A stretch of DNA of 64,000 bases from Mya arenaria. Taxonomy: Eukaryota > Mollusca > Bivalvia > Myida > Myidae. The translations under genes were made by a program, and so were the position numbers. Position 1 is the first letter of the stretch; each line of letters begins with the position of its first letter. Location of the stretch: contig NC_069124.1 of assembly GCF_026914265.1 (NCBI RefSeq), positions 74,710,765 to 74,774,764 of the forward strand, in the 5' to 3' direction. The notes below the pieces were generated by a model, which ran no database searches, had not been told where the DNA came from, and saw nothing but the letters and a program-made list of their open reading frames with translations. Of this stretch, positions 33,556-55,850 are shown piece after piece.

Positions 33556-34279
33556 GTCAGTTTACAGCTATGGTAGATCAGGTCCACTGATAAGCCAGAT
33601 CATCAGTTAAGCATCATGGGAGGGATTATAGTGCTGTGTTCATCTTTGTGTAATTTGATGTCATGTAAGTATCTTTGACTTTGTGTTAAAGTGTCAGTTT
33701 ATTAGTATATTAATTAGTTAATTTAATTTCAAGTTATCATGGGGGGGGGGGGTTGTAGTCCAAATAATTGTACGTTGACGGATTTTTGTACGATTTTGGA
33801 TATGGCAAATAATCCCGTATACATAACACGTCTATTATTTTAGACTGGGGGGAACTGAAATTAATGAAAACTTAAAAAAAAGCCCAGGCAACCCATTGTA
33901 CATAACTCTTCCGAGCTCTTAATTTTGTATAATGAATCATTCTCATCTCATTTTCCGTACACTGTATAGTTTATTTAGCGAACATTCTTTCTATCTATAC
34001 TATAGGAGGTGTTGTTTCTTCCATAAGTATTGAGCTTAAAAAGTTATAAAAGTCATGCAAAACAAGAATTTGCCCTTCAGCCTGGTTCAACTATAAGTGT
34101 ATATGTAATTGTATTATATTAATATAAACGCACAGCGTGTTCTATGTATTAATACACACGTACTTTATAAATCTCTCATTGTCAAAACTGTCATTAAATT
34201 TGAATGATATTATGTTGATTTTTGTCTCGAAGGACAAAAAAAGGTAGGTTTGATGAAAAGTTAAATCAACAACATTTTA

Positions 34280-34500
34280 TTCGAATTAGCCATACATACG
34301 AAATTTGCCCCGACTCTACCATTTTTATAGTCAGTTGGATTTATATAATCCATATATGTGTATATTTATGTGTTTAAATATGATTAGTTTTAAACCTTCA
34401 AAGCTTTTTAAATAATAGTAAATACACAGAAGCCAACGAGATTTCTTAATATACTGTGAATACTTGTTTAACAATCGTTGTAAAATAAATAAGTGTAAAT
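34280..34500. repeat. Part of the GGTTCGGGT MITE family in copy A intron 1
   Basis: Contains CCGACTCTACCATTTTTATA, the inner text of the family, and runs through the site that in copy B is split by a 2.56 kb insertion. The right-end text of the family (AAAAGGATGTAACCCTAAAC) lies at about 36,030-36,075. Confidence 0.55.
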
Positions 34501-34848
34501 TTTGAATCAGTCTGATAATTCAGTTGGGTAACAATTTTCAGAATCCGGATTTAAAGTATTGCTACCAACGCTTCAAGTATAAATTAGAATGGTATTGCTA
34601 TTAAATCTCACAATCGATGAGTTAGTTGGCCGCATATTCAGCACACATTGATCATGGGGCCAGTCTAATTATGTTGCATTGCATGTGTAGTAAACCATTT
34701 CAATATCAGGGTAACGGTACACGTACAACAAAATTGTAACTGATTAAGATGATTTTGAGTCTGACCTCCAAGATGGCGAGAAACAATCAAAACAAATAGG
34801 TATTTTGGAACCTGTTTACGCCTTGTAAGTAGTATAAAGTATTTATTT

Positions 34849-35794
34849 TAGGGGTGCAAACGAATGGCAAAATTGATATTCGAATATTCGGTAATTCTTT
34901 TGATCGAATATTCGAATATTCGATCACAGGCAAGATTGTCTAAAAACTTCTATATTGCATCGATCATTTGCGTTCCAAATAATGACTTTCGGTATGACAT
35001 TTGCCGAATAATTTTATTGATGTCGGATTGTATGACGTCGTCTGTAATACGTGTAGTGGCTTTATTGTGCAATTTCAAAATAACTTTGCATATGTTATCT
35101 AGAATTATACTAGCATGTCATATTGTTTCATTACAAAAACTACGTCGATATATCAAAAGTCAAGGTCATGGCATCTTCACCGTTGCAAACGGTCTGGTTT
35201 CCGTCGACTTGTTATTATTTTGTACCCGTCTTTCGTTTGTTACTTGTTTTTATACCAGTAAAATTATTTTGTTTACGTGTATTTGTTATATTTATTTCCG
35301 AACAGTTCGAGAGAGCTTATTCACAAGGAATGATGGACATCAAATTTTATGCGCATTATATTCAGTGCGATTTTAGCTACATTGCTCAGTTTAATTGACA
35401 TACAAAAGAAATATTTTGTGTTATTGCTGACATGACGAACCCTTAATTGGCATCGTTTAAAATAGGTTCCCCATTGCCGCTAATTGGCAGGGGACGGCAC
35501 ACGTAAAATTATTTGTTTATTTCGCCATGATGATGGGCCTTAATTGACACTTGACGCGCCACTGTGTATTGTCTAGATGCTCGCGCCTCGATAATTGGTG
35601 ACATGCGTGGGTGTATTGACGAAACGAGGGTAAATTAGAGCGTTTTAATCTTTAAATATAAATGTTAAATAAATGTTCAAGATGGAAAAAATTTTAGAAA
35701 AAAAAGTAAAAAATAAACGAATATTCAAATACCGATTTTAATATTCGAATACCATTCTTTTGATCGAATATTCGAATATTCGTTTGCATCCCTA
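34849..35794. mobile_element. hAT-type non-autonomous transposon, 946 bp
   Basis: The ends are inverted (TAGGGGTGCAAACGAAT at the left, matched at the right with one or two changes) and packed with ATTCGAATATTCG motifs. It is flanked by a perfect 8-bp target duplication, ATTTATTT (34841-34848 and 35795-35802), as hAT elements make. Copy B has the unoccupied site (reverse strand near 53,045). A 170-codon open stretch inside shows no transposase motif, so the element is non-autonomous. Confidence 0.9.
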
Positions 35795-36738
35795 ATTTAT
35801 TTTCAAAAAATTATGACGCCCATTGGGCTATACAATTTCAGTGCTTCCATCTGCTTTACATTTCAAGTAATTTACATTAAGTAATAGAGTAAAAAAGTTA
35901 TTGAAGGAAAGCCTTCGACAAAACTTCGAACATTACTATAACACCATTCTTCAATGATGACAATAACGTTCTTACATAAAGCCTTTTAAAAAATAAAATG
36001 GAAGAAAACTACCTACCCTACTTGTTTTTTAAAAGGATGTAACCCTAAACCAACCACTTTATTTTTGGCCTAATGGACAGGGAGCTTGAAAACATTCTAG
36101 AACAATAAAGTGTAGTACTTAACACAGGCATATGCCGTTCCATTGACTGAACAGGGACAAACGTTTTATTATACACCGTGCCGAACCCCCGAACAATTTT
36201 CGGAAAATCAACATTTGATCCCGATTCTTCGAAATTGAGGCCAAGGTAATTCGGCCGAAATAAAGGGTGAGAGTCAAATACAAATAAAGATATTCTTAAA
36301 CACGGAAGCGTATGAAAGGCGAAACAATTGTGTTCCTGTATTTTGGGGAATTTATACTTTTAATCCTGAACAATCACTTATTCGTTCTCACGGTTCACCC
36401 TCACTCATCGTACGTATTAGGAAAGTTCCAACACAGAAAAATAACATGTTTCAGCGTTGCTTAATGTGTGCATTTTTTTCTTCTACTTATTGAGTGGAGA
36501 ATCCAGTAAAAGAATATTCTGTTTTATTTTCTGAAAAACAAGTGCGGTAAATCCGTCGAACAAATCAACTTTGCGCGGCCTAACACGCCAGATGTTGCAC
36601 ACGAAGACCTTACACGGCCATGAAATGCATGCGGGAATGGTTATTCAATCTGTACACATTGTAAATAATTTAAACGATGTTCAGATCATATAGTAAGATA
36701 TTAATTATGATAAATTTATTATAAAAAAACACTCGACC

Positions 36739-37062
36739 ATTATGTACCAGTCAATTGTAAACACGCCCCCCCCCCCTCCCCAGGTCCGGGGAATAGCGGG
36801 GACTTGGCTTTAAGTTCAGCCAAGCCCGGTTAAAATCCCCGTCCTGCGGGGACGAACTGCTTTTAAACCCTCGCCAAATGCTCCTGCACCCCAGGGACCC
36901 TAGGTAAGGCCCAGGCCCCGCTATATTTGGCACGAAGACAAAACCACTGAATTCACCCGGCACTGCGGGGCCACCTGGGAGGTAAAAACACGGCCCATTT
37001 CCCCGGCTATCCCCGGTACGACCCCGGACCGGGGGGGGGGGAGTTTTAATTGACTGGTGCAT
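36739..37062. mobile_element. Harbinger-like MITE, copy 2
   Basis: Ends ACCAGTCAATTGTAA and TTAATTGACTGGTGCA, GC-rich interior with long C and G runs, same internal text as copy 1. Copy B lacks it at the matching place (near 53,215), so it arrived after the duplication or was lost from B. Confidence 0.8.
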
Positions 37063-38130
37063 CACTGGCTGTATGCAGCTCTAGTGGTCGCATGTTAAGC
37101 GATAAAAGTTTACAGTGACTTTCCCATTTAGTTGGTAGTTTACACAAGGAAATGGGGACCGCCATTAAAAGTTAAAGGTTGTTAGTATGTACTTATAATA
37201 TTAAAACGAAATGTAACTGTATAGCATCAAACCATTTGTGTGTTAAGTACATACTACGGCCTTAAAAACATTCGGTTCGGGTAACCGAAATAGGCACCGA
37301 CCCTACGGTTTCATAGTCAGTTTGTGTTTATATGTATATTAAAACCTTTAGATCGGTTTAGTCACTGGCATTTGAATAAAATAAATATTGCTCATCAACA
37401 TGTGAAACTGGGCCAGACAATACTTTAATTTGACGAGAATAAAAATGGACTGATTTTACGGAGTGTGTTAATACAACAAATCTGAATATTCTGTTCGTAT
37501 GAAGTCTCTTCTATCAGTCCAGTCATTTGCTGTTAAATATGCTATTTAAAACTGACGTTACTGAGTCTGTTTCATATGAAAGTGTTTCACGAAATCCGGT
37601 CACGTGTTTTGATGTGGTTAATGTTAGTCCGTTTTTGTTTTACAGGCTGGGCCGTGTTTGGTTCCGACTGTTGCTCGAGTTACACGGACCCGAGCGGCAC
37701 GTAGCACGCATCCCAGCTGTGTCAGGATTACTGCTGTTGGAACCTTGACCTCACCAATTATAAGGTGTGCTGCAGCAACCCCATTCGACAGGTCCCCTCT
37801 TCTGCCCGTGACCAAGAGGCCTGCGCCGAGAGCTGGATCGCCGAACACATGTTAGTATAATGCACTGAATACATAATTACATCGATGTTTTAGAACTGAT
37901 CAAGGCCTTCCACCGTAGCGTTTGGTACGCATCAAACAATTTGGAAAGTGTACGTATTTGTGAAAACATAAAATTGTGTTTTTAAAAAAACAATAAAGAA
38001 CATTGAAGGCTTTATGTTACATAATTGTTCGGGTTTCTACTTAAAAAACATTGTCAGGGAACTGTTTAATTATTATCATGTGTATTGATCGTCCCTTCAA
38101 AATAGAAATGCAAATAAAATAATAGTTTTT

Positions 38131-38618
38131 AGCTCGACTATTCGAAGAATAAGGAGAGCTATACTACTCACCCAAGCGTCGGCGTCGGCGTGGGCGTCAC
38201 ACCTTAGTTAAGGTTTTGCATGTAAGCATCTTTAAGTCATTATCTCAGTATATACATAATGTATTGCATTGAAACTCGAGATATGTATTCCCAACTATCT
38301 AACCTACTAAATTAATTAAGTTAGATAACACTTTTTCAAATAAAATGCAAATTATGGGCCTTTTTATTTGACTTAGAAATTCTGGTTAAGGTTTTTGCGT
38401 GTAAGCACACATAGGTTAATATCTCAGCAACTTCTTCATGTATTGCATTGAGACTTTAAACAATGGTACTCAACCACCCAACCTACTTGAATGACCAAGT
38501 TAGATAACTGAATTTTGCAAATAATGACCCTAGTGATCCATGTTTCGCAAAAACGTTTCAATCCTTACACTGAAAAGCGGCGGAATAGTCGAGCGCGCTG
38601 TCTCTGTGACAGCTCTTG
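38131..38618. mobile_element. Inverted-repeat element in intron 2 of copy A
   Basis: Begins AGCTCGACTATTCGAAGAAT and ends with the inverted AATAGTCGAGC followed by a short tail. Inside is a GTCGGCGTCGGCGTGGGCGTC-like simple run. I recognise this as a repeat type widespread in bivalves. Copy B has the uninterrupted site at about 54,293, where AGTTTTT runs straight into AACCAC. Confidence 0.75.
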
Positions 38619-40021
38619 TTAACCACTTAAATCATGGATTTTTTTTATCGATACATACTAGCAGGGTGCCGTTATCATCTTTGTTCATTGGGTCGTTGTT
38701 TTGTTGAATATAAATTTTGCTTGCATTCAAATAACATAATTTAAACTGTAGCTGGGTGCCAATCGTGTCCGGGTTTGTGTTGTTGGGCCTGATTGTTTTG
38801 TGCTGCTGCTGCTGCTGTTGTGGCTGCTGCTGTCGGAGGGATCGCAACGTAATTGTGCAATCCCCGGGAGGCCCTCGTGAGTACATTGCTGTAGTGGATC
38901 ATAGACAAATGACCATTCTGGCTCTTAGGACAAAGCTATTTAATAAAGATAGGCCATAATGTTTATATTATTTAATATCAGGGCAATAATAAATATCAAA
39001 AATCGCCGCACTTGGTTGACCCACTAGCTCCGCCCTTTGTACCTGTTGACAAGTGGTTATTTTGGCGCGAAAATGAAAACTCCCAGGCGTAAGCTTCATT
39101 AAATGAGTGTCGTGCGATTGTCAATTGTCGCGACTTTGTGAATATGTTATAAAATAAAATAAAATTAATTGACGTTTGTACAAAACTTTAAAAGTACCGA
39201 AACTTTAATAATTTCCGTCATAAAATCAAGGATGTTTACTTGTAAAGATATGTCCGTGTTGCAAATAATAGCACAAAGAACACCGCATTCCTGTTATTCA
39301 ATATCCCTCATTTAAAACCTTTCTACTGTATTATGTACACTATTATTTCATTGGTACAAATAAGCGACTCAGAGCCAAGTTGTTCGTGCAACGTATTTCA
39401 TTTCTGAGGCCTTGTAACTGAAACGGTTCATTAAAAGGTTACACGAGTTTCAACAACAAACAATGAATCGCTGACAGTGAATATATGACAAATAATTCTT
39501 ACCATGTGAAATCTTTTAATGTGTAATACATAGTGTATTGTACAATCACATGTACGTAGTGGTCGTTTGTTACTGAATCACCATGTTGAAATTGAATACA
39601 GCTCAAGAATAAGTACGTTTTATCATGCAGAAACGAGCGTTGTGATGGCCAGCCAGACCAATATGATGCACGCCGGATATAACCAGTAGAACCACTTCCG
39701 GTCAGAACACGCCATAACCATCTTCACAAGCGCCTTATATGAAGCATTTCGACAATTGGTAGGATAGGAACATGTACATACTGATAACAATAATTATGTG
39801 TGTGAGGACAATTTTGTATTTCTTTGTGTTCTCAATGTTGGGTTTGTAAGAACAGTTTTCTTATCAGTTGGGACATTTAGGTGAGGTCAGTCAAGTTGTA
39901 AATTTAAGTGATTCGTTCGTTTTTATGGGGCTGTTATCATCTCAATGATATCATGGTATTGTGTTAAATGGAACAACATCGTAATATTACCCTTATTCAT
40001 GACATATTATCACAATGCTTT

Positions 40022-40325
40022 CGTATGACAAGGAAACTAGCCGTTCGTTTTACAAGGAAACTAGCCGTTCGTTTGTGACAATGAAACTAACTCTTATTGT
40101 CACAATGAAACAACACTTTATTGTGACAAAGAAACTACACTTTATTGTGACAAAGAAACTACCCTTTATTGTGACAAAGAAACTACACTTTATTGTGACA
40201 TTGTGGCAATGAAACTACCCTTTATTGTGACAAAGAAACTACCCTTTATTGTGACAAAGAAACTACCCTTTATTGTGACAAAGAAACTACCCTTTATTGT
40301 GACAAAGAAACGAGCCTTCATTGTC
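40022..40325. repeat. 24-bp minisatellite after copy A, about 12 units
   Basis: Units of the form TTTATTGTGACAAAGAAACTACCC follow two units with AAGGAAACTAGCC; there is one irregular spacing near 40,200. Copy B has about 6 units at 55,690-55,850, mostly the AAGGAAACTAGCC type. Confidence 0.9.
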
Positions 40326-41234
40326 GTTGTTGTTTTGAATTCTATACTTTTTATGTTCAGTTTCAAGCAATTAAGAGTATATATATATAAGAATTAATAT
40401 CACTGCTACGACTTTGTCTTTTTGTAATTTTGTGAACACATGACCACTTTTTAATTATAAATGAATTAAACGCACTGTTGCATATTTTATATGTAGTTTA
40501 ATGAAACAACTTAATTATTCATTAAACCTTTCATAAATGAACATAGGTTAATGAAGTGAAACACTAATCTACATAACCTGAATTGTTTAAACATCATCAT
40601 GTCATAGTGACTAACAGGTTAGGAATTTCTCAAAAAACTATGCATCCTTCATGACTGTATAACACTTAAAATTAATAATGTTATTTAAACCTCTTCAATT
40701 TTGTAAGTTTTCTCTGAAATAAGGAAGGTTAATCTCACGGACAGTAAACAATTTCTGAATTATTTACATGTATTGCTATTCTGATAAAACAACTAAGATA
40801 ATTTTATAACTCCACAAAAGAATACATCTTTTTATATTCAAAAAGTTGCCACAAAGTTGACATTTGGTATTTTGCATTTTGAAACCTTTGTCCCAAATTA
40901 GTTAACAGGTTCATGCAACGTAGTTATATAACACGACCGTTAGGATTTTTTTAATTAAAAGTACTGTTCCCATATTTGAATCAACAAAATATCTCGAGAA
41001 AAGCCTTTGTTGAATTACGCGTATATACAAACTATCATTGCCAACTTTGGAGCTTATCAGGGTAAGGCGGTCTCTATCGACTTCTCCTCTCAATGCAATA
41101 GTAGCGTTAAGATACCCTACTTTAGCAATTATTAATCTATTGAACGCATTGCTCAGATAAGAAAAAAAAGAATTTATGAGGGTCATAAAGTTGACACGTC
41201 CTTTTATTACAAATTTCGATAGAAAACTTCAGTT
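40326..41234. other. Spacer between copy A and the LINE
   Basis: The homology to copy B fades at about 40,380. Beyond it I see no gene or repeat. Confidence 0.45.
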
Positions 41235-43255
41235 TTGGGCGATTTTAGGTTTAGCCATAATTTAGTATTTTTTAATAGACTTTTTAAGAACGGAGAATAC
41301 CCAAACTCTTGGTGTGAGTCAATAATTGTAACAATCCATAAAAAGGGTGAAATAAATAACGCTGATAATTACAGAGGAATCTCCTTACAAAATGTATTGA
41401 GTAAAATATACTGTGGTATATTAGTCTCTCGTCTAAACTTCAGTATTGCAAGTCTTTTGTAAAATTTCTGAAAACCAAGCTGGATTTAAAGCCAGTTATA
41501 GCACCGTGGATAATGCGTTTATATTAAATTCTATTATAGAACGCATGCTTTATAAAAAGAAAGGCAAATTGTATGTTACTTTTGTTGACTTTCAAAAATG
41601 TTTTGATACTATTGATAGAAACTATCTATGGCAGGTTCTAAATAGGAAAGGAGTTAAAGGAAAATTACTTAAGTCTTTACTTAGTATGTATAATTCTGTA
41701 AAATCATGTATAAGATGTAATGGATGTCGTAGTAACTATATTCAAAGCTCTGTTGGTTTAAAACAGGGCTGTTTAGCAAGTCCAATATTATTTTCTTTTT
41801 TTATTGATGAATTAGTTACTTTTCTAGAAAGTAATAATGTCCATGGAATACAGTTGCATCCAGGGACTGTTAATCTGTTTTTACTTATGTCTGCCGATGA
41901 TATAGCGTTATTGTCAGATACTGTGTACGGTTTGCAAAAACAGTTAAATTTACTTTCAGAATTTTATGTCACATACAAGTTAAAGGTTAACGAAACTAAA
42001 ACCAAAATTGTTGTCTTTAAAAAAGGTGGAAGACTCTCAAGAACTGAGAAATGGTTCTACAACACTACTCCTTTAGAAGTGGTCAATAAATTTTGTTATG
42101 TAGGACTTACGTTTACACCACAACTTTCATTTAATTGTATGGTACATGAACTTTGCATAAAGGGTAAACGTGTGCTGGTATCATTGTTATGTTCTTTATA
42201 TAAATGTGGTCAAATGTCAAATGGAGTATTCTTCAAACTTTTTGATGCAAAAATATGCTCACAACTCCTATATGGAGCAGAAGTATGGGGTCTCGGAAAA
42301 TATGATGATCTCGAAAGGGTTCATATTTATGCATGTAAAAGGTTTATGTGTGCTAAGTTACATACAACAAATGACACTGTTTTAGGGGATTGTGGTAGAT
42401 ACCCAATGTTTATAGAATCTTATAAACGTTGTGTTAAATATTGGCTTAAAATACTAAAAATGCCTGATCATAGATTTGTTAAGAAATGCTATATCATGAT
42501 GTGTAATGGTGACCTACATGGTAGAAATAACTGGGTAACAAAATTACGTGTATGTCTACAATCAATAGGTTTTGGTTACATTTGGGACAACCAAAACGTT
42601 TGTTCGGAAATATTTTTTATTAAGTCGTTTACAAATAGATTATATGACATGTTTAAACAAGATTGGCATAGTAAAGTTAGTAATAGTAGAAAATTATGCT
42701 CATATTTCGGGTTCAAGTCATCATTTGGATACGAAAAATATTTAGATGTTTTAAATATCAGAAGATTTAGATTTATATATGTATCTTTTAGAACTAGTTC
42801 TCACGATTTAGAAATTGAAAATTCGTTATACTGATATCCCAAGGGAACGAAGATTATGCAAAGTATGCCACTTTGAATGTATTGAAAATGAATACCACTT
42901 TCTACTTGTTTGTGATTTCTACGAGGATCTGCGATCCCAATATATACCACAGAAATATTATGTTAATCCTAGCATTAACAAGTTTAGAATACTCATGGCA
43001 TCATCTAATGTTAATATAGTTAAAAGTGTATCTACGTATTTGTATCATGCGTTTAATAAAAGAAAAGTTCGACTTGAAGAATGAAATTCTAAAAATCAAT
43101 ACCTATATAAAAACAATATTACTGTATAGTTGTTTCAATGTGTTTCATTGTACTGTTGCACAACATTGTAAATATATACTGTATGTCTGTATATTGTAAT
43201 GGGCCGGTGGCCTTATAGCAAATAAACTTTGTCATTGTCATTGTCATAGTAGAGC
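41235..43255 (+). mobile_element. 5'-truncated LINE (non-LTR retrotransposon) with RT domain
   Basis: Reverse transcriptase motifs in order: IHKKGEINNADNYRGISL (about 41,340), TFVDFQKCFDTIDR (about 41,580), SVGLKQGCLASPILF (about 41,750), then SADDIAL in place of the usual F/YADD box (about 41,890). A C-terminal zinc-finger-like CKVCHFE...EYHFLLVC lies at about 42,855-42,915. The coding region is cut by two frameshifts (near 41,445 and 42,820) but has few other lesions, so it is fairly recent. No endonuclease is visible upstream, which means 5' truncation. The 3' end carries AATAAA and a TTGTCA-type microsatellite tail. Confidence 0.85.
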
Positions 43256-43891
43256 TGTTTTATATACTATAGGCTAAACGTTAGTTGATAAAGAACTAAA
43301 ATCTAAAATCATATCCGGTATACTTACTTCTTTTACATATTATATTCCGTGTCTTTTTGTTGAAGTCTATAATTGATCGTTTATCAAGATATATAGTTGA
43401 GGCCATTTCCACACCTATATTTTGACAGTTTGGTATTTTTTCTCATTTCTAAATTTTTTCAAAATTGGGCGTGAAAGTTTTGAAAGGGACAGGTAAAAAG
43501 AAATATTAACTGCTGTTGCTATCATTTATAACCGGACATTAACGATACAAGTTAAAATGCCATTAATGTTGTATTGACAATTAGACAGGTATATCCTGGT
43601 TATTTTATAACAACACGTTGATTAAATTACATTTTTAAACGTTATGAACACCTAGTGCACTCGTTACTAAAAACATGCGGAGAAACACATTTCTTACGGC
43701 ACATGATGAACGTGGGAACGATGTTGAATTTGCGAAGATTGTATTTTAGATGTAATGTAAATATTCAAGTTATTCAAAATAAAGAATGTCAAATATTTGA
43801 TCACATGCAGAAAACAATTTATTGGACGCACCTCAAAATAAATCTAATTTGTCATTATATGGAAAAGTCATATTGATAGTGGCCGAAGTTC
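43256..43891. other. Spacer, nothing recognised
   Basis: AT-rich without supported features. Confidence 0.5.
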
Positions 43892-44598
43892 TAAAGCTCA
43901 CTCTCCGACAGATTGGCAGTTTTGACTTTTTTTGTTTTGTCTCAGAATCAGCTGATTTTGGTATCAATTCCTTCAATTAAGTCATATAAGATTACTCACG
44001 ATAAAACAAATCTCAATTGCTTTGAAAACTGCCGAAAGACTCATTTTTCTTAAAGCAGTATTAAAGGCCTAGTTTAAGTCTTCTATAAGTGACCCCCTCC
44101 CCCCCCCCCCCCAAAAAAAATGTGTTCATTACACCATGTACACAACCTCTGTTTATTGATCTTAATTTGCTTGCCTTAATTGATCCCTCTTATCAGATCT
44201 CCGATCTGAGTATCGTGCTGTGCAGTTTTGGAAGTCAGTTTATAATAAAAATGGACCCTAAATGGCCCTGAGCCAATAAACGAATACACGGGAAATTGGC
44301 CCCTACTGTGACACCAGTGCAATTGGCAAGATATGCACAGCAGGGGATTATCATGGCATCATGGCAAAGATTCCTTAAACTAGGCCTTAAACGCTTTTAG
44401 ACACAAAATAGCAATATTCGAACGTAAATATGAATAACTGCGATCTGATATTTTGTCAAAAGTCTTGTATCACTGGTCTCAAGACGTTAACGCAAACTTT
44501 GGCGTAATCCAGGACAAAAAAACAAAAACAAACCGAAACAAACAACAAAACAACTTGTCTAAACCGGCGGTCAATCAAAAATGAAAGTGCAGCTTTAA
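43892..44598. mobile_element. MITE of the CTGCACTCTCACAGAT family, diverged and interrupted
   Basis: Left end AAAGCTCACTCTCCGACAGA and right end GAAAGTGCAGCTTTAA. The inner text (ATTCGAACGTAAATATGAAT; TCTGATATTTTGTC) matches the full copy at 46,071-46,431. The middle is occupied by another element. Confidence 0.7.
44064..44393. mobile_element. Nested MITE with AAGGCCTAGTTTAAG ends
   Basis: The inverted ends AAGGCCTAGTTTAAG and CTTAAACTAGGCCTT are flanked by TTAA-like sequence, inside the older MITE. A TTAA target would suit a piggyBac-type element, but this rests on one copy. Confidence 0.6.
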
Positions 44599-45706
44599 TC
44601 GGGTCGGAAATGAATTGCAGTGATAAACGATATCAAGGGTTCACAGGAAATAAACGGGGGTGGAAAAATCCTAGTTTAAACATTATATTGGAACAGTGAT
44701 AACGAAATTTTTAAGTATCCGCTGTACAAACAGACGCCTTTCATTTTGGTGTGCCAATGGCCATCATATCAAATTTGTTAACTGGTGACACCATCTAAGT
44801 TTTGTATTATTCGAACAGGTATTTCTGGCCGATTAAAATATGTTAAACAATTGGCTAACATCCATTATAGATAATGCTATATATGGTATAACGCTCGGCA
44901 AACATGAGAAAAAAAATAAACAGATGAAATCGTTAACTTACTAACGATTATAGTCATCTGTAAACAAAGCAAATATTTGTATCTTTAACGGTTCCTTCCA
45001 AGTGCATTCAAGAAATTTATAATAGATTGCTGTGGGATAAAATGATTAAATTGAATTATGAGATCAATATAGCTCAATGTAAAATTCAATAAGTGAATTA
45101 TTGTGTGACTAGAAAGGTAAATTCACATAGAGAGTTTTCCCTCTAAAGTTCGCAAATGCATAAACTGGCCATAGTGAGTTTTCTTATACATGTATAAATA
45201 ATTCACATGCCGCGTAGAACATAAGTATGGTTTCTACGGAGTCCCCAAAGCGACATGAATCACACCGTGATGTTTAAGAGCCTTTGAATATATATCACCA
45301 AACTACGAAACGGATTCGTACGATGGTTTAAGTTTATATAAATTATGATTTCTTTCATTTCATTGTTTTTCCGTTTTGGAACAGATTTATTCTAAAGAGA
45401 GACAAGACTGTGATAAAGGACGACCAAAATGAATAAAATTATATTAAATTATAAACTAGAAATTGTTTTCTAGGGAACGCATACGACCCTCGACCATCAT
45501 GACTTGTATCCCCCACCCCGACTATTATGCCAAAATGTACTGGAACTTATCAACACTTACAGTCACCAGTAAGAACAAAATAGTATACTTGTATTATATG
45601 AAAATAAATCGATGGGCCATTTGAATAAAACGAAAAGGTTTCTAAAGTGGAGGTGACGATTATATAACAGCTACATTTGTAACAATAACTGGTGAAAGTT
45701 TCAATA
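44599..45706. other. Spacer, nothing recognised
   Basis: No supported gene or repeat. Confidence 0.5.
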
Positions 45707-45985
45707 GAACCCGACCGTACCTATGAAATAGGCGACGACCCTATTGTTTTTCTAGTCAGTTGTTCAAAAAAATGAAAAACTAAAACTGTTGTAAGTGTGT
45801 TTTAATATGCAGTTTAAAACCGTGAATGCTTTATACAGAAGATAGCTTTAACACCATTCTCCAATGATGAAACTAACGATCTTATACAAAGCCTAATAAA
45901 AAAATAAAGATAAAAAGCCTACCTACCCTACCTATTTTTTAAAAGGATGTAACCCTAACCAAACCATTTTTTGGCCTTATGATCA
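45707..45985. mobile_element. Complete GGTTCGGGT-family MITE
   Basis: Left end GAACCCGACCGTACC-like text and right end AAAAGGATGTAACCCTAACC, then AAACCATTTTTTGGCC. It contains the family's TCTAGTCAGTTG and CTACCTACCCTACC blocks in the usual order. Confidence 0.6.
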
Positions 45986-46070
45986 ATCAAAGGGCCATTA
46001 CTCAGGGAAACATTACTCGACTAGGCCAAGTTCCTGTGATGTTTCAGCAACTTAAAATCCCTCCAGCAAT

Positions 46071-46431
46071 TTAAAGCAACACTCTTACAGTTGAACGTTT
46101 TGACAACTTTTTTATTTTTTGTCTTGGAACAAGCCATTTTTTTTTGCGAAAACCCATGGAAACCAGTTATATAAGACTGCTGACAAAAAATTAGAACGCA
46201 GATTTTTATAAGTTCAAAAATTGATGTTTTATGCATTTTTCTTAAACCTTTAGTAACGGTTTAAGCCTTAAAACATTAATTTTCGAACGGAAATATGAAA
46301 ATCTACGATCTGATTTTTTGTCAGCAATCTTATATCATTGGTTTGCAGATATTTACGCAAAAATTTGCTCTTTCCAAGACAAAAAATAAAAAAGTTGTAA
46401 AAGTGGTAAATCTGTGAGAGTGCAGCTTTAA
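46071..46431. mobile_element. Complete CTGCACTCTCACAGAT-family MITE
   Basis: Starts TTTAAAGCAACACTCTTACA and ends GAGAGTGCAGCTTTAA. The arms of about 80 bp are inverted repeats that include AAACTTTTTTATTTTTTGTC-like text. This is the reference uninterrupted copy in the window. Confidence 0.8.
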
Positions 46432-46770
46432 GAGGTAACGCACATACATATTGTGACAACCGTATACATACGAACACACAGACAGACCTGTAGGTGAAAA
46501 ATGCAACTTCAAAATGTCTCATTTAACTTATCATAAGAGAGTTAAATATTATTGTAATTAAATAATTGTATTCATATCTGAATTTATAACCCTTTTGGAT
46601 CACCATACTAAATTTACAAGTCGACGGATTCTATTTTTAGAAAATACAGCGTTTTCAGAAATTTGCATCGTGCCCTCGATTGAATAAACACAAAGAGCGT
46701 CACACAAAGTGTTAACACTACAGCGAAGAATTGAGGTTTTGTATTAAACGCACTTCATAACTTAAGCATC

Positions 46771-49700
46771 ATGGGAGGGATTAGAGTGTTGTGTTCATCT
46801 TTGTGTATTTTGATGTCATGTAAGTATCTTTGACTTTTTGTCCATGTGTCAGTACAGTATATTAATTAGTTATTCTAATGGTTGTAGTCCAAATAATTGT
46901 ACGTTGTTTTATACGATTTTTGATATTGCAAATAATCCCGTATAACACGTCTATTATTTTAGACTGGGGGCGGGGGACTGAAATCTATGAATAAAAGCCC
47001 AGACATTGTACATAACTCTTCCGAGCTCTTAATTTTGTATGATGAATCATTCTCATCTCATTCTCCGTTTATAGTTTATTTAATGAACACTCTATCTATC
47101 CTGTAGGATATGTTGTTTCTTCCATAATGTATAATTGTATTGAGCTTTAAAAAGTTATAAATGTCATGCAAAACAAGAATTGACTCTACAGCCTGGTTCA
47201 ACTATAAGTGTATGTGTATCTGTATTATATTATAAATGTCTCATTGTCAAAACTGTCATTAAATATGAATTATGCTGATTTTTGCCTGTCTCTGAGAACA
47301 AAAAAGGTAGCTTTGGTGAAAAGTTAAAACAGCAACAACATTTTGTTCGGATTAGCCGACCATACATACGAAATTGACGCCGACCCTACCATTTTTATAG
47401 TCAGTTGGATTTATATATGTATATAAATTGAGCCATAATATGGAGTCCGGGAATTTGCGTTACATCACAAACACTGTGGTGTCCTCTTTTTTAATATTTG
47501 CGTTTGTCAAATTTTATGCTGTATTAGGATAGAACAATATCTAAAGCAATTATATTTGAAATGGCATAACACTTCTAGCTTTAAATACAAAGTAATGTGG
47601 ATTTTAAGTTTTATTGTTAGTAACACTGGACACCATATTACAAAGCATTCTTATGAAGTCCAGTTGATTGTTTTCACTTATTTAGACCACTTACATCAAT
47701 CAATAGCTTTATTTGAATTGCTTTAAATACAGAATCATGTATTTAGTTAAATATTTAGCAGTTTGTTACCTAGTTGAAGATTGATGTAACAAGACACAAA
47801 GTGAGATGTAACTGGACACAATTTGTGTAACAGGACACCAAAAACTGCACAAATTGTGTAACAGGACACCAAAAACTGCACAAATTGTGTAACAGGACAC
47901 CAAAATCCACACTGGTGTCTTTGTTATGCACAAACAAAGTTGGAGTAATCACAATGCATCTCTATTTTGGAAATAAAAGAGTCATTTGGTGAAGAGTGAT
48001 CTAAAGGCTAATTATTCAAAATAGATTAAGTATTATTGAAAAAAGTCTGGTATACATTGCTGAAAAGCTTAGTAACCTGGCTAAATATTTGTTTATGGCT
48101 TTTATTTACAAAAAAATAAATCGGTTGAGTATCTTATCAGCTACTCATTTGGTGTTGGTTTTAATAAAAAATGACAATTTACTCAAGGATATTGAGACTA
48201 ATAATTATAGATTAAGACAAAGATAATGTGTAAGGAAACTTCTAATGAGTGGGTTTTATCCACAGCCTAGGAGGTAAAGTGAAGCATGATCTGCCTTGAA
48301 CAAATACAATTTTAAGACAAGTACTGTCAACTTGGTGCACCAGTCAATTGTTCCCCCCCCCAGGTTTAGGGGAATACTGGGGTTAACCCGGGGAAATGGG
48401 CCGTGTTTTACCTATCAGGTGGCCCTGCAGTGCTGGGTGAATGCGGTGGTTTTATCATCGCTTAAAATATAGAGGGGAATGGACCTTACCTAGAGTCCCT
48501 GGGGTGTGGGGGCATTTGGCAGGGATTTTGCCATTGGATCGTCCGCGCAGGGTGGGGATTTTAGCCGGGGTTGCATACTGAAAGTCAAAGTCCCCACTAT
48601 TCGCCAGACCTGGGTGGGCCGTGGTTACAATTGTCCGGTGCATATCCACATGAACGTTGTACTGGTACTCTAACAATTGAGCTTACTGCGTGGATAGTCA
48701 CCGCCCCACCCCAACCCCACAGAACTGTTTACACAAAAAAAATCTGCAGCCCAAACCCAATAATGCTGAAGTAAAGGCATGCATAGATTTCAGCTGGTAA
48801 AGCTGACTCGGTGCCAAGCTCACACCCATCCTACCACGACCCACAAAACTCTGCACAAGGCAATCAATGATTTTACAGAATAGTAATGTTGTTTTAATGG
48901 CAAGGGATGGTGTGAAAAATAACACGGCAAAGTATGAATTAAAACTTACATTTCATAGGGTACTCTTATAACTGTTGAGAAAATGTTGACATTTAGTCCA
49001 TGCATGCATTTAATCCGATGTAATGATTCATGCATGCCATGAACCGTATGATCATTTCAATGACTGTCAAGTACATTTTCTGTGTGCTCACGATTTTTCT
49101 AGAGGAAATAGAGTGCTTCAACTATAAGGAAACATCTAAATATTCATAAAACGAACATTCTTTGAGGTTACAATAAATATTTTCTCTTAAACAAGCACAT
49201 TTAATTTAACACAATCCATTTCCTTGTTGTTACAATGAGCCTTCTTTACGCGGATTGAAACGGTGTTAATCGCCGGCAGCCGCATCGCACTTTCGTATAT
49301 CCTTACTACTATTTACGAGGTCTATCTCGAAGCTTGCCGGAGATGGCCGAGTTGTTACGATTGGTTACTAATATAAAAATAATGCGACGTAACAAAAAAG
49401 ACACAACTTTCGCACCCGATAGTTGACTTCCCTGTCATTATAATCCGACGTTTTCCAGAACCACCTGTTTACGACATTATCAAAGTTCACGATCGATCAC
49501 GTTGTTATCATGCTGCGCGAAGATGCATCGATGTCAAGGTCATGAGTTATAATGCTTTTTTCTGTGACGTAACAAGGTGGACACATTTGGTTACGTCGCA
49601 TTACATGGTTTTATTTTGGAAAATAATAGTATTACCGCTGCTGAAATAAAACTGAAATTAGTAAATACAAATAAAATGTCCACGTTTTTATTTCACACAA

Positions 49701-52700
49701 ATAAGCCTACAAGGATTACATAAAAAGAAATCACATTTAGTTTGTATTTTGAACAACCCCTCCTGAAAATGTCCGCACAGGACACCTGGAAAATGGATGA
49801 TAAATGTATGATTTAAATGAAGTAACAGTTGCTTGAAAGGTCAACATCATATCAATAAAGACAGTTATTTGTCTTGAAAATTTTCTTTAATTTTACAAAT
49901 CTGTATATCACATGTATTTCTCCAGATACATACGATTAAACTGAAATTTCTGTGATGTAACGCAAAATCCCGGACTCCATATTATGGCTCATTTATGTGT
50001 CTAAATATGTAGTTTAAAACCTTCAAAACTTTTTAAATAATAGTAAATACACAGAAGCTTACTTTACCACAAATCTCCAAGGATGGGAATGACGTTCTTG
50101 CCTAAAGCCTAATACAAAAAAATGAATTAAAAAAATGAAAATCCTGCCTACCCTACCTATTTTTGAAAAAGATGTTACCCTAACTAAACCATTTTTTGAG
50201 GCCTGATGGACTGATCCAATAATAAACGATATACAAGACTAGGAGCTTTGTGTTTGCGATCGTTCAATCGAATAATGAACGGTCTTACATTACAATCACA
50301 GAGCTTGCCTTCGTCAACGTGTGTGTTAAATATGTATAGGATAGATCACGAGTATGATATGGATTTTATCAGCGAGCGTAGCGTACCGATACCATACATT
50401 TGTATGAGAAAAATGTCAGGAAAGCACAGGAAACAAACATTTCTGTAGTATTAAGATCGTCCTTGTAACATAAGTAGGTGAACGATTTGCACGAGATTTA
50501 CCAGTTGAAATATCCGAAAGAAAAACAGTTGTGTGTGAGATTTATCAAACACTTTTGCAGGCCTATGATTGGCCGGCTGGAGGTAACTGTGGTCTAATGT
50601 TTTGATCTTGTATTTAAATTTCCCGTCATTCATTGTCATAGCGTGATTGCCAGATAATGATTAGCGTGAAGTGGCCCGTCTTTTGGCGCATGTGAGTTTG
50701 GTGTGTGGTCACCAAGCCGTACTAGTGTGTTTATACCGTTCCGGTTACTCAGGCCAATTCTCCCCTCAACACAAGACACTCTCACGCCAACAATCGTTTT
50801 AAAATAAATATTAAAGTGTAAAAGTTGTTTCAGTTTGACAACACAGGACAATTCTCATAATCCAGATATAAACTATTGCTACCAACGCTTCTAGTATTAA
50901 TTAGAATCGTGATGATAATAAATCTCACTATCGATAAAGTCAGGCCTTAATACATGATCTGAACATCGTATAAATCATTTACAACAGACAGTATGTGTAC
51001 AGATTGAATATCCATTTCCGCATGCATTTCATGGCCGTGTAAGGTCTTTGTGTGCAACATCTTGCGTGTTAGGCCGCGCCAAGTTGATTCGTTCGAAGAA
51101 TTTACCGCACTTGTTTTTCAGAAAATGAAACTGAATATTTTAACTTTTTTAACGATCTCACTGGATTCTCCGCTCAATAAGACTAAGTAGAAGAAAAAAA
51201 TACCGCCAAATGACGCTTTCGTAACACATATAAAACAATGCTAAAACATGTTATTTTTTCTGTGTGGTAACTTCCTTTAAGCCTTACTTTCCTTTTACGT
51301 ACGATGAGTGAGGGTGAACGCATACTCTAGTTGTTTTTTTCAGGATTAACAGTATTAATTCCAAAAAATACAGGAACACAGTTATTTCGCCTTCCACATG
51401 CTACCGTGTTGAAAAACGCCTTTATTTGTATTTACTCTCTCACTCTTTATTTCGACCGTATCTAGAGACGACTTTGATCCGGTGAATGTGGTCGAGGTTG
51501 TATCATAAAAGAATTACCTGCGCCTCAATTTCAGAAAATCGGGATCAAATGTTGATTTTCCGAAAATTGTTCGAGGTGAGGCAGTGTATGATAAAACCTT
51601 TTGTACATGTTCAGCCAATGGAACGGCATATGACTGTGTTAAGTACTACACTTTATTGTTCTAGAATGTTTTCAGGCTCCCTGTCCATTAGGCCAAAAAT
51701 AAAGTGGTTGGTTTAGGGTTACATCCTTTAAAAAAAAACAAGTAGGGTAGGTATTTTTTTTCCATTTTATTTTTAGACTATCTGCGCATGCGCGCAGGTA
51801 GTCTTAAGACCGCAAACACCAAAGAACTACTTCTATTCATGTCGTTTTAACCCATTTTTTGTCTCAATGCGCTATGTTTAGCAGGATGACGTCGAAACCA
51901 TAAAAATAGATTAGTTGTATTGCAGTCCGAGTAAGAGTTCTTGCTTGTTCGGCTATTTCCGCGCTGTATTTCTGTATCCCGGCGTTTTATCTTTAGCAGA
52001 ATATAACTATTTTTAGATCGCTATATTTATCAGATTAATGTGGGTCAAAATAATGGAGGCTCTGGTAGGAAGGCTACATAATGATATTCACTCTGCGTTT
52101 AGCCCAAGATGTTCCAGATATTACAGATATTATTACCGACCGCAAGTGTCCAATCGCCTGCAGGGTTTGTTATTTTAACCTGACGTGACCCAGAAGCACG
52201 CTTATTTGTAATGGTGCATTTCTTATATTACTTTTATGAGATAAGAAACAAAAATGATCGTCTGAGTGTCAAAATAGTTGTATCTCAGGTTTCGCGTTGC
52301 TAATGCTTCAAATACTATGATTTGCCTGCTAAACAATAACAAAATACTATTCATTCTATGATGTTTAGGCGTTTATATTATTAATATGATGTTTTATTTT
52401 TTTGCATAAAAGCTTTGTTCCGGTGTATTCTTGGCATAGCTTTAGACATTAGGCTTTCGATTTATATTAGCACACATGCCCTGATACGACAGTGAGTTAT
52501 GCATACGTTTGGTGAAGCAAAGTAGTTCGGAAAAAAAACCTGTAAAACATCCAAAGAGTGCGACGCATTCATAACAGCACTAGTACTATTTCTTCAAAGA
52601 TACTGACATAAAACAAAAATAACAATCATACTCTCATTTTTAGAACAGACAATTTCCGATAATCTAAAAATAGTTTCAACTACATTAACTGACCTATATT

Positions 52701-55359
52701 CTGAACATAGTTTCTACATACATTTACTGGCCACATGTTTGTCCTCACCGCGGGAAAACGACCATCTGATAAGCTCTGCATTTTGAAAGGAATTATTGCT
52801 AAAATTGTTCGTAAAATAAAATCATTTTCCAAACAATTAAAACGTTTATGTTCATAAAACTTGCCTAACGTATGATTTCTAATAAAAGTACCGAAAAAAA
52901 ACTTTAGAAGCGATTGAAAGAGGGATGCATTGTAACTTTTAATACATGAGGATTGGGGATACGTTGACTGAAGTGATAAGCTATGCACTTTGAATGGAAT
53001 TATTGCTGAAGTTGATTTTAAACAAATGGTCATAAATTTTTAGAAATAAATACTTTTTACCAGGCGAAAACAGGTTCCAAAACACCTATTTTTTCTGATT
53101 TTTGGCCGCCATCTTGCAGCTCAGACGCTGATATCGAAACGGTTTACTACATATGCAGTGCAACATAATTAGACTGGCCCTATGACCAAGGTTGTGCGCT
53201 GAATACACGACCATCTATAATTATAATGAATTAATTAATTACTGGCTATATACAGCTTAAGTGGTCACCAGGTTAAGCGATAAATATAAAAAAATGACTT
53301 GCCCATTTAGAAGTTAGTATACACAAGGAAAAGGGGACCTTTAAAAGTTAAAGGTTGTTAGTAAGTACTTATAATAATAATAAAACGTTATGCGACTGTG
53401 TAGCATCAAACCATTCGTGTGTTAAGTACATACTACGGCCTTAAAAACATTCGGTTCGGGTAACCGAAATAGGCACCGACTCTACCGTTTCATAGTCAGT
53501 TTGTGTTTATATGTATATTAAAACCTTTAGATCTGTTTAGTCACTGGCATTTGAATAAAATAAATATTGCTCATCAACATGTGAAACTGGGCCAGACAAT
53601 ACTGAAATTTGACAAGAATAAAAATAGACGGAAGTGAACTTGTGTTAAACAACAAATGTGAATATTCTGTTCGTATGAAGTCTCTTCTATCAGTCCAGTC
53701 ATTTACTGTTAAATATGCCAATTAAATCACACTGAGTCTGTTTCATATGAAAGTGTTTCACGAAATCCGATCACGTGTTTTGATGTGGTTAATGATAGTC
53801 CGTTGTTGTACAGGCTGGGGCGTGTTTGGTTACCAATGTTGCAAGAGTTACACGGACCTGAGCGGCACGTACCACTCCTCCATGCTGTGCGAGGACTACT
53901 GCTGTATGGACATCGCCCTCCAGTATAGGGTGTGCTGCAGCGAATCCTGGCGCCAGGTCCCCTCCTCTCAACGTGACCAAGAGTCCTGCACGGAGAACTG
54001 GATCGCCGAACACATGTAAGTATACTGCACTGAATACATAATTACATCGATGTTTTAAAATACTGATAAAGTGCTTCATTAAAAAACGTTTGGTATGCAT
54101 CAAACAATTGGGAAAAGTGTACGTATTTGTGAAAACATTAAATTGTGTGTTAAAAAAACATAAAGAACATTGAATGCTTTATTTGTAAATGTTCGGGTTT
54201 CTACTTAAAAAACATTGTTAGAGAACTGTATAATGATTATCATGTGTAGTGATCGTCCATTCCAAATAGAAATGCAATTAAAATATTAGTTTTTAACCAC
54301 TTATATCATGGATTTTTATCGATACATACTAGCAGGGTGGCTTTATCACCTTTGTTCATTGGGTCGTTGTTTTCATGAATATAAATTTTGCTTGCATACA
54401 AATAACATAATTTAAACTGAACATTTGTAGCTGGGTGCCGATCGTGTCCGGGTTGGTGTTGCTGGGCCTGATTGTGTTGTGCTGCTGCTGCTGTTGTGGC
54501 TGGTGCTGCTGTCGGAGGGATCGCACCGTAATTGTGCAATCCCCGGGAGCCCCTCGTGAGTACATTGCTGTAGTCGATCATAGAAAAATGACCAGTCTGG
54601 CTCTTAGGACAAAGCTATTTAATAAAGATAGGCCATTATGTTTATATTATTTGAAATCCGTGTAATAATAAATTGAAATATCAAAATACGCCGCACTTAG
54701 TTGACCCACTAGCTCCGCCCTTTGTTCGTGTAGGCAAGTGGTTATTTTGGCGCGAAAATGAAAACGCCCAGGCGTAAGCTTAATTAAATGAGTGTCGGGC
54801 AATGGTAAATTGTCGCGAGTTGTGAAATTGTTATAAAATAAAATAAAATCGATTGACGTTTGTACAAAACTTTAGAAGTACCGAAACATCAACTTTTGTT
54901 TAATATTTTCCGTGTAAACATCAATAAAGGATGTTTACTTTTAAAGATATGTCCGTGTTGCATTTAATAGCACAAAGAACACCGCATTCCTGTAATTCAA
55001 TACCCCTCTATTAGAACCCCTCTACTGTATTATGTACACTATTATTTCATGCACCGTATTTCATTTTTAAGGCCTTGTAACTGAAGCGGTTTATGAATAG
55101 CTTACCTGACTTTCAACAATAAACAATGAATCGCTGACAGTGAATATATGACAAATAAAACATTCTTAACATGTGAAATATTTTAACAAGTAATACATAG
55201 TGTATTGTACGATAACATGTACGTTATGGTCGTTTGTCACTGAATCACCATGTTGTAGTTCAATACAGCTGCTCAATAATAAGTACGTTTTATCATGCAG
55301 AAACGAGCGTTGTGATGGCCAGCCAGACCAATATGATGCACGCCGGATATAACCAGTAG
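46771..55359 (+). CDS. Shisa/CYYR1-like single-pass membrane protein, copy B (intact, 144 aa)
   Basis: Exons 46771-46819, 53814-54015, 54431-54555 and 55301-55359; every intron is GT-AG and the phases join to 145 codons with the stop. A signal peptide (MGGIRVLCSSLCILMS) precedes a nine-cysteine ectodomain (CWGVFGYQCCKSYTD; EDYCCMD; YRVCCSE; one more Cys before NWIAEH). Then come a membrane helix (VPIVSGLVLLGLIVL) and a dense Cys cluster with CCCRRDR, as in palmitoylated membrane proteins, and a short tail ending HAGYNQ. The order signal, Cys-rich ectodomain with paired cysteines, membrane helix and short cytosolic tail is that of the Shisa-like superfamily, which act as membrane adaptors. Paired with the neighbouring copy A. 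The family call is by pattern; the ligand or partner is unknown. Confidence 0.8.
47819..47912. repeat. 31-bp tandem repeat, three copies
   Basis: Three near-identical units containing GTGTAACAGGACACC, inside the 2.56 kb element. Confidence 0.85.
48336..48642. mobile_element. Harbinger-like MITE, copy 3
   Basis: Starts TGCACCAGTCAATTGTTCCC and ends GTTACAATTGTCCGGTGCA. It shares the internal text (AATGCGGTGGTTTT; ACTGAAAGTCAAAGTCCC) with the copies near 57.5 and 58.3 kb. Inserted within the 2.56 kb element. Confidence 0.8.
51775..52990. other. Copy B-specific segment within intron 1
   Basis: This stretch interrupts the homology to copy A. It begins with a near-palindrome, GACTATCTGCGCATGCGCGC followed by AGGTAGTC, and TTTTTAGA-type text recurs in inverted form near 52,660. 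It could be another non-autonomous insertion, but the right boundary is unclear. Confidence 0.35.
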
Positions 55360-55689: not shown

Positions 55690-55850
55690 ATGTTTTCGTA
55701 TGACAAGGAAACTAGCCGTCCGTTTTACAAAGAAACTAGCCGTTCGTTTTACAAGGAAACTAGCCGTTCGTTTTACAAGGAAACTAGCCGTTCGTTTATG
55801 ACAAAGAAACTACCCTTTAATGTGACAAAGAAACAATCCTTCAGTGTATT
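55690..55850. repeat. 24-bp minisatellite after copy B, about 6 units
   Basis: Units of the form CGTTTTACAAGGAAACTAGC with a short remainder; the homologue of the 12-unit array behind copy A. Confidence 0.9.

Follow-up and report, generated by a model that had tools for sequence, protein, structure and literature searches.

A mosaic ectodomain exon in a tandem array of Shisa-like genes of Mya arenaria, probably shaped by gene conversion

A tandem array of Shisa-like genes

The stretch of DNA analysed here, referred to as the window, covers 64,000 nucleotides of the Mya arenaria genome (C3:74710765-74774764). It contains two genes, A and B, which are members of a tandem array whose four-exon genes all lie on the + strand and encode small membrane proteins carrying a Shisa_N ectodomain. 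The copies of the array follow one another on the + strand of a single contig in the order A, B, C, G, E, D, F. Copy C starts at C3:74776721, just beyond the window, and is followed near C3:74821716 by copy G, of which exon 3/4 fragments are present and exon 2 was not found. Copy E, starting at C3:74831077, has a TGA in exon 1 (codon 7), and copy D, 106 kb downstream with its start at C3:74853314, has an open spliced frame. Copy F lies near C3:74904650, and its exon 2 appears broken by eye. The region of this last copy (C3:74904501-74907900) is itself mosaic-looking, with an E-like 5' part (80-84%) and a D-like 3' part of 1.4 kb (88.5%). In silico splicing was achieved for the five copies A, B, C, E and D, and the rate and match tests were carried out without F, given its broken exon 2, and without G.

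In gene A, exon 1 (33616..33664) provides the start ATG and a leader that looks hydrophobic by eye, exon 2 (37646..37850) encodes the Shisa_N-type ectodomain, exon 3 (38752..38876) encodes a hydrophobic stretch and a poly-Cys run, and the coding part of exon 4 with the stop occupies 39631..39689. The spliced model of B consists of exon 1 (46771..46819), exon 2 (53814..54015), exon 3 (54431..54555), again with a hydrophobic stretch and a poly-Cys run, and the coding part of exon 4 with the stop (55301..55359). All these exons lie on the + strand, and every exon junction of A and B is of the GT/AG type. The spliced frame of B is open, as is that of D, and exon 2 of A contains an in-frame TAG (37702..37704, + strand), which is codon 36 of the spliced frame. 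The splice donor of exon 2 reads GTTCGT in D, GTTAGT in A and C, and GTAAGT in B. Upstream of 37061, intron 1 is rearranged between A and B, and intron 2 of A contains approximately 485 extra bases (38131-38616) that have no counterpart in B and C. Between the two genes, a LINE-like reverse-transcriptase reading frame is visible by eye (41300-43090). Tandem repeats of approximately 24 bases, seen by eye and as BLAST self-matches, lie downstream of A (40030-40320), and a shorter version of them occurs in B at approximately 55700-55840.

Exon 2 alone, together with its junction residues, scores 24.7 bits (B), 25.5 bits (D) and 22.8 bits (E) against Shisa_N (Pfam PF13908), for which the curated gathering cut-off of 22 bits served as threshold. 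Full-length D reaches 22 bits, just at the cut-off, and the Pfam profile search returned no Shisa_N row for full-length B. The array proteins resemble Shisa_N proteins in having, by eye, a leader-like start and a Cys-rich ectodomain followed by one hydrophobic stretch, which is seen in the translations of exon 3, but differ from them in the poly-cysteine run that comes after this stretch. The tails of Shisa proteins carry PPxY motifs. No PPxY was seen by eye in the five translated tails, which sets the array apart from vertebrate-type Shisa proteins. Shisa has been described as having a proline-rich tail (PMC10531659). The structure predicted for B exon 2 from its single sequence was of poor quality, with a mean pLDDT of 52.7, and was left unused. 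Further Shisa_N matches above the cut-off are found in the genome at C3:58350496, C7:24983718, C7:26353131 and C1:18648013, the last of these only with its neighbours in frame. In addition, a distant relative of the exon-2 domain is located at C3:14496139, with 38% and 42% identity and a long repetitive stretch after it.

Divergence of exon 2 among copies A, B and C

The first-pass annotation of the window had drawn attention to the divergence of exon 2 between A and B, which it considered to be far greater than that of the flanking introns, and this contrast is real. Exon 2 differs at 39/202 aligned bases, with one codon missing in B, in agreement with the approximately 40 differences and one codon counted initially, and the changes mostly affect amino acids, as had been noted (30.5 non-synonymous versus 7.5 synonymous by the Nei-Gojobori method, with the TAG codon of A omitted). 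The introns had been put at about 5% divergence. This figure reflects a conserved stretch (37360-37440 versus 53539-53619, 3/81 differing), and the alignable introns differ by 9-10% (52/571 in the 3' part of intron 1, 37061-37645, followed by 39/398 and 69/717). The difference between exon 2 and the introns is significant (Fisher p 8e-5), and the highest A-B divergence outside exon 2, among 1880 scored 200-column windows, is 14.7%. Exon 4 was described as identical, which is borne out by 0/60 coding differences between A and B; both A and B differ from C at 2/60. The nine cysteines reported for A and B are recovered in the junction codon and exon 2 of both copies, and nine are likewise present in each of the five spliced copies.

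Copies A and C have a near-identical exon 2. They differ at 3/205 bases in this exon compared to 164/1712 (9.6%) in the introns (p 1e-5), which are therefore about six times more divergent, and both carry the TAG at codon 36. In an alignment of A, B and C, A equals C at 38/41 variable sites in exon 2 versus 71/265 elsewhere (p 3e-16). The longest run of such sites comprises 26 sites at 37664..37780 (+ strand), is flanked by mismatches at 37658 and 37783, and was matched in 0/20000 shuffles. Within exon 2 (37646-37854 in the three-way alignment), the odd copy is B at 39/41 two-state sites and A at 0, whereas A is most often the odd copy in intron 2 (27/45), exon 3 (9/11), intron 3 (47/91) and the 3' flank (16/31). 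The three-way alignment is a mosaic. No odd copy stands out in intron 1 (C at 31 sites, B at 28, A at 21), and in the five-copy alignment the A-C run of 39 sites was reached in 117/5000 shuffles; both observations count against the exchange of exon 2 proposed below.

Other runs emerged from the shuffle tests as well. An A-B run of 10 sites in intron 1 was reached in 0/20000 shuffles and an A-B run of 42 sites over exon 4 in 0/5000; the latter is not taken as conversion, since divergence is low in all three pairs there. A B-C run of 30 sites over exon 4 (18/5000) and a B-E run of 9 sites in exon 3 (36/5000) were also recorded.

Kinship with copy D and the case for gene conversion

Apart from each other, the nearest exon 2 to those of A and C is found in copy D. 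Between A and D, 12/205 bases differ in exon 2, compared to 37/106 over the preceding 120 bases and 33/68 over the following 70, so that the touching introns are 35% and 49% divergent. The 5' edge of the exon is blurred, the bases just before the acceptor being common to nearly all copies. Matches to D at variable sites were compared between exon 2 and the other exons (exons 1, 3 and 4 with short flanks). Copy A matches D at 52/62 sites in exon 2 and 42/137 in the other exons (p 1.3e-12), and copy C at 51/62 and 52/137 (p 6e-9). No significant shift was observed for B (25/62 and 45/137, p 0.34) or for E (33/62 and 57/137, p 0.17). Over the same partitions, the match between A and B falls from 110/137 in the other exons to 23/62 in exon 2. 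Furthermore, among the 10 pairs compared, the longest match runs of A-D and C-D lie inside exon 2 (30 and 27 sites, 0/5000 shuffles each). Synonymous differences between A and D amount to 4/39.8 sites (0.10) in exon 2 and 13.5/29.2 (0.46) in exon 3 (p 0.0006, with exon 3 rounded to 14/29). The corresponding values for C and D are 4/40 (0.10) and 9/30 (0.30), with p 0.06 at these small counts.

A search of the genome (1.216 Gb, 18 contigs) at the DNA level with exon 2 of A gave 5 matches among the scored candidates, in the order A, C, D, E, B. With exon 2 of B, the DNA search gave 5 matches and the protein search of the same genome 7, in both cases with none nearer than 80% among the scored candidates. 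As one of its two explanations, the first-pass annotation had envisaged an exon 2 swapped by recombination, for which a near-identical exon 2 elsewhere in the genome would speak. Such an exon is present in copy C (3/205), D being next nearest, and the variable-site shifts of A and C lend the idea of a swap additional support. However, D, the nearest of the 5 matches apart from A and C themselves, differs from A by 5.9%. A relative of D may therefore have acted as donor, and since the genome searches score the best candidates only, the donor may also be an unscored sequence.

For A-D, C-D and A-C alike, exon 2 forms a tract that is closer than its flanks allow, as is expected of gene conversion. 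The preferred reading, to which a probability of about 0.85 is assigned, is that A and C received a D-type exon 2 by gene conversion, the native type persisting in B. Exon 2 of A and C would have been replaced by the D-type through interlocus gene conversion over a tract of approximately exon length, and a later exchange between A and C would have made both copies alike, nonsense codon included. Exon 2 of A would accordingly be a D-type import, and B, with its open exon 2, would retain the native type of the A/B/C group. The mosaic pattern, the nearest exon type and the shared stop are seen directly in the sequences, the recipients, the molecular route and the order of these events are inferred, and A and C may both have lost function. 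As a D-type exon 2 was probably swapped into A and C, the A-B contrast would mainly reflect B-type and D-type exons that diverged earlier than the introns around them. The direction of transfer is indicated by the variable-site matches: the B-D match is unchanged while the A-B match falls, so A and C are the likely recipients. A foreign exon 2 received by B was rejected, given the unchanged B-D match and the lack of an exon 2 nearer than 80% among the scored candidates. Receipt by D from A or C was rejected as well, since this would have left the A-B match in exon 2 unchanged.

Exon-scale interlocus gene conversion is known in duplicated genes, as in MHC class II exon 2 and CYP21A2/CYP21A1P. 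The present case resembles these systems in its exon-length tract, its flanks of different age and the nonsense codon common to the converted copies, and differs in concerning a Shisa-like array in the genome of a clam. At the level of abstracts, a literature search found neither this array nor a bivalve parallel, which is no proof of absence, and the available part of PMC10663159 gave 0 matches for 'shisa'.

Selection on exon 2 and other explanations

The other explanation offered at first was diversifying selection, to be recognised by a dN/dS above 1. The exon-2 ratios are 0.99 for A-B, 0.80 for B-D and 0.52 for D-E, and A carries a nonsense codon, so selection does not hold up as the main explanation of the A-B contrast. 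As a sole cause it was rejected on the A-B ratio, on a B-branch omega that is not above 1 and on a branch-site signal that is lost upon masking. A narrower version, in which the B ectodomain changed rapidly around an unchanged cysteine frame and the older form persisted in the other copies, is a tentative possibility and may add to conversion. With B as foreground and all five copies included, the branch-site test gives an omega2 of approximately 11 at approximately 21% of codons and p 0.003; with only B, D and E, p is 0.008. Non-synonymous differences are more numerous for B-E (38) and B-D (29.5) than for D-E (20.2), all five spliced copies retain their nine Cys, and the variable-site match between B and E drops to 14/62 in exon 2, compared to 53/137 across the other exons (p 0.035). 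Moreover, A-B non-synonymous divergence (30 or 31/157) exceeds the intron rate (160/1686) with p below 0.001. However, A-B synonymous divergence is also above that of the introns (7 or 8/38 versus 160/1686, p 0.09 or 0.03), which points weakly to an older exon. The omega of the whole B branch is 0.57-0.75 (0.74 with five copies, 0.57 with three) and differs neither from 1 nor from the background. In addition, masking of eight B codons with at least 2 changes from both D and E brings the branch-site p to 1 in both data sets; several papers deal with multinucleotide mutations. As masking would erase a true signal too, selection on B exon 2 is left as suggestive. Selection on B would, in any case, not account for a match of A and C to D that is confined to exon 2.

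Considerably less probable is a history without any exchange with D, in which strong constraint preserved exon 2 in A, C, D and E, and relaxed constraint let B alone drift. All 15 trees were compared by AU tests. Neither exon 2 (p 0.34) nor the other exons (p 0.094) reject ((A,C),B,(D,E)), and ((A,B),C,(D,E)), which fits the other exons best, reaches p 0.068 in exon 2, so tree shape alone does not force an exchange. The synonymous differences in exon 2 between A and D (4/40) and between B and D (8 or 9/38) likewise do not differ significantly (p 0.13-0.22). Against constraint speak the low A-C divergence of an exon 2 that bears a stop in both copies, compared to that of their introns, the drop in the synonymous fraction from exon 3 to exon 2 in A-D and C-D, and the restriction of the shift in matches to A and C. 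Least probable of all is an assembly artefact or duplicated haplotypes: B and C are only about 5.5% apart downstream of exon 2, but the copies are arranged one after another on a single contig and carry distinct insertions, such as that in intron 2 of A, and a duplicated haplotype would not be expected to yield a mosaic of exon size whose neighbours differ on either side.

Taken together, the array, with a D-type exon 2 probably imported by A and C, illustrates how paralogue conversion may mimic fast exon evolution: a plain exon/intron comparison of A and B hints at selection, even though the exon would mostly have been swapped and bears a stop in A. A bolder and rather unlikely extension is that exon 2 is an exchangeable ectodomain cassette, for which donor and dead copies would supply conversion tracts of exon size and selection would diversify the live copies, so that a Shisa-like family of an invertebrate would gain recognition diversity from cassettes. 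If true, this small membrane-protein family would join the invertebrate systems with exon-scale diversification.
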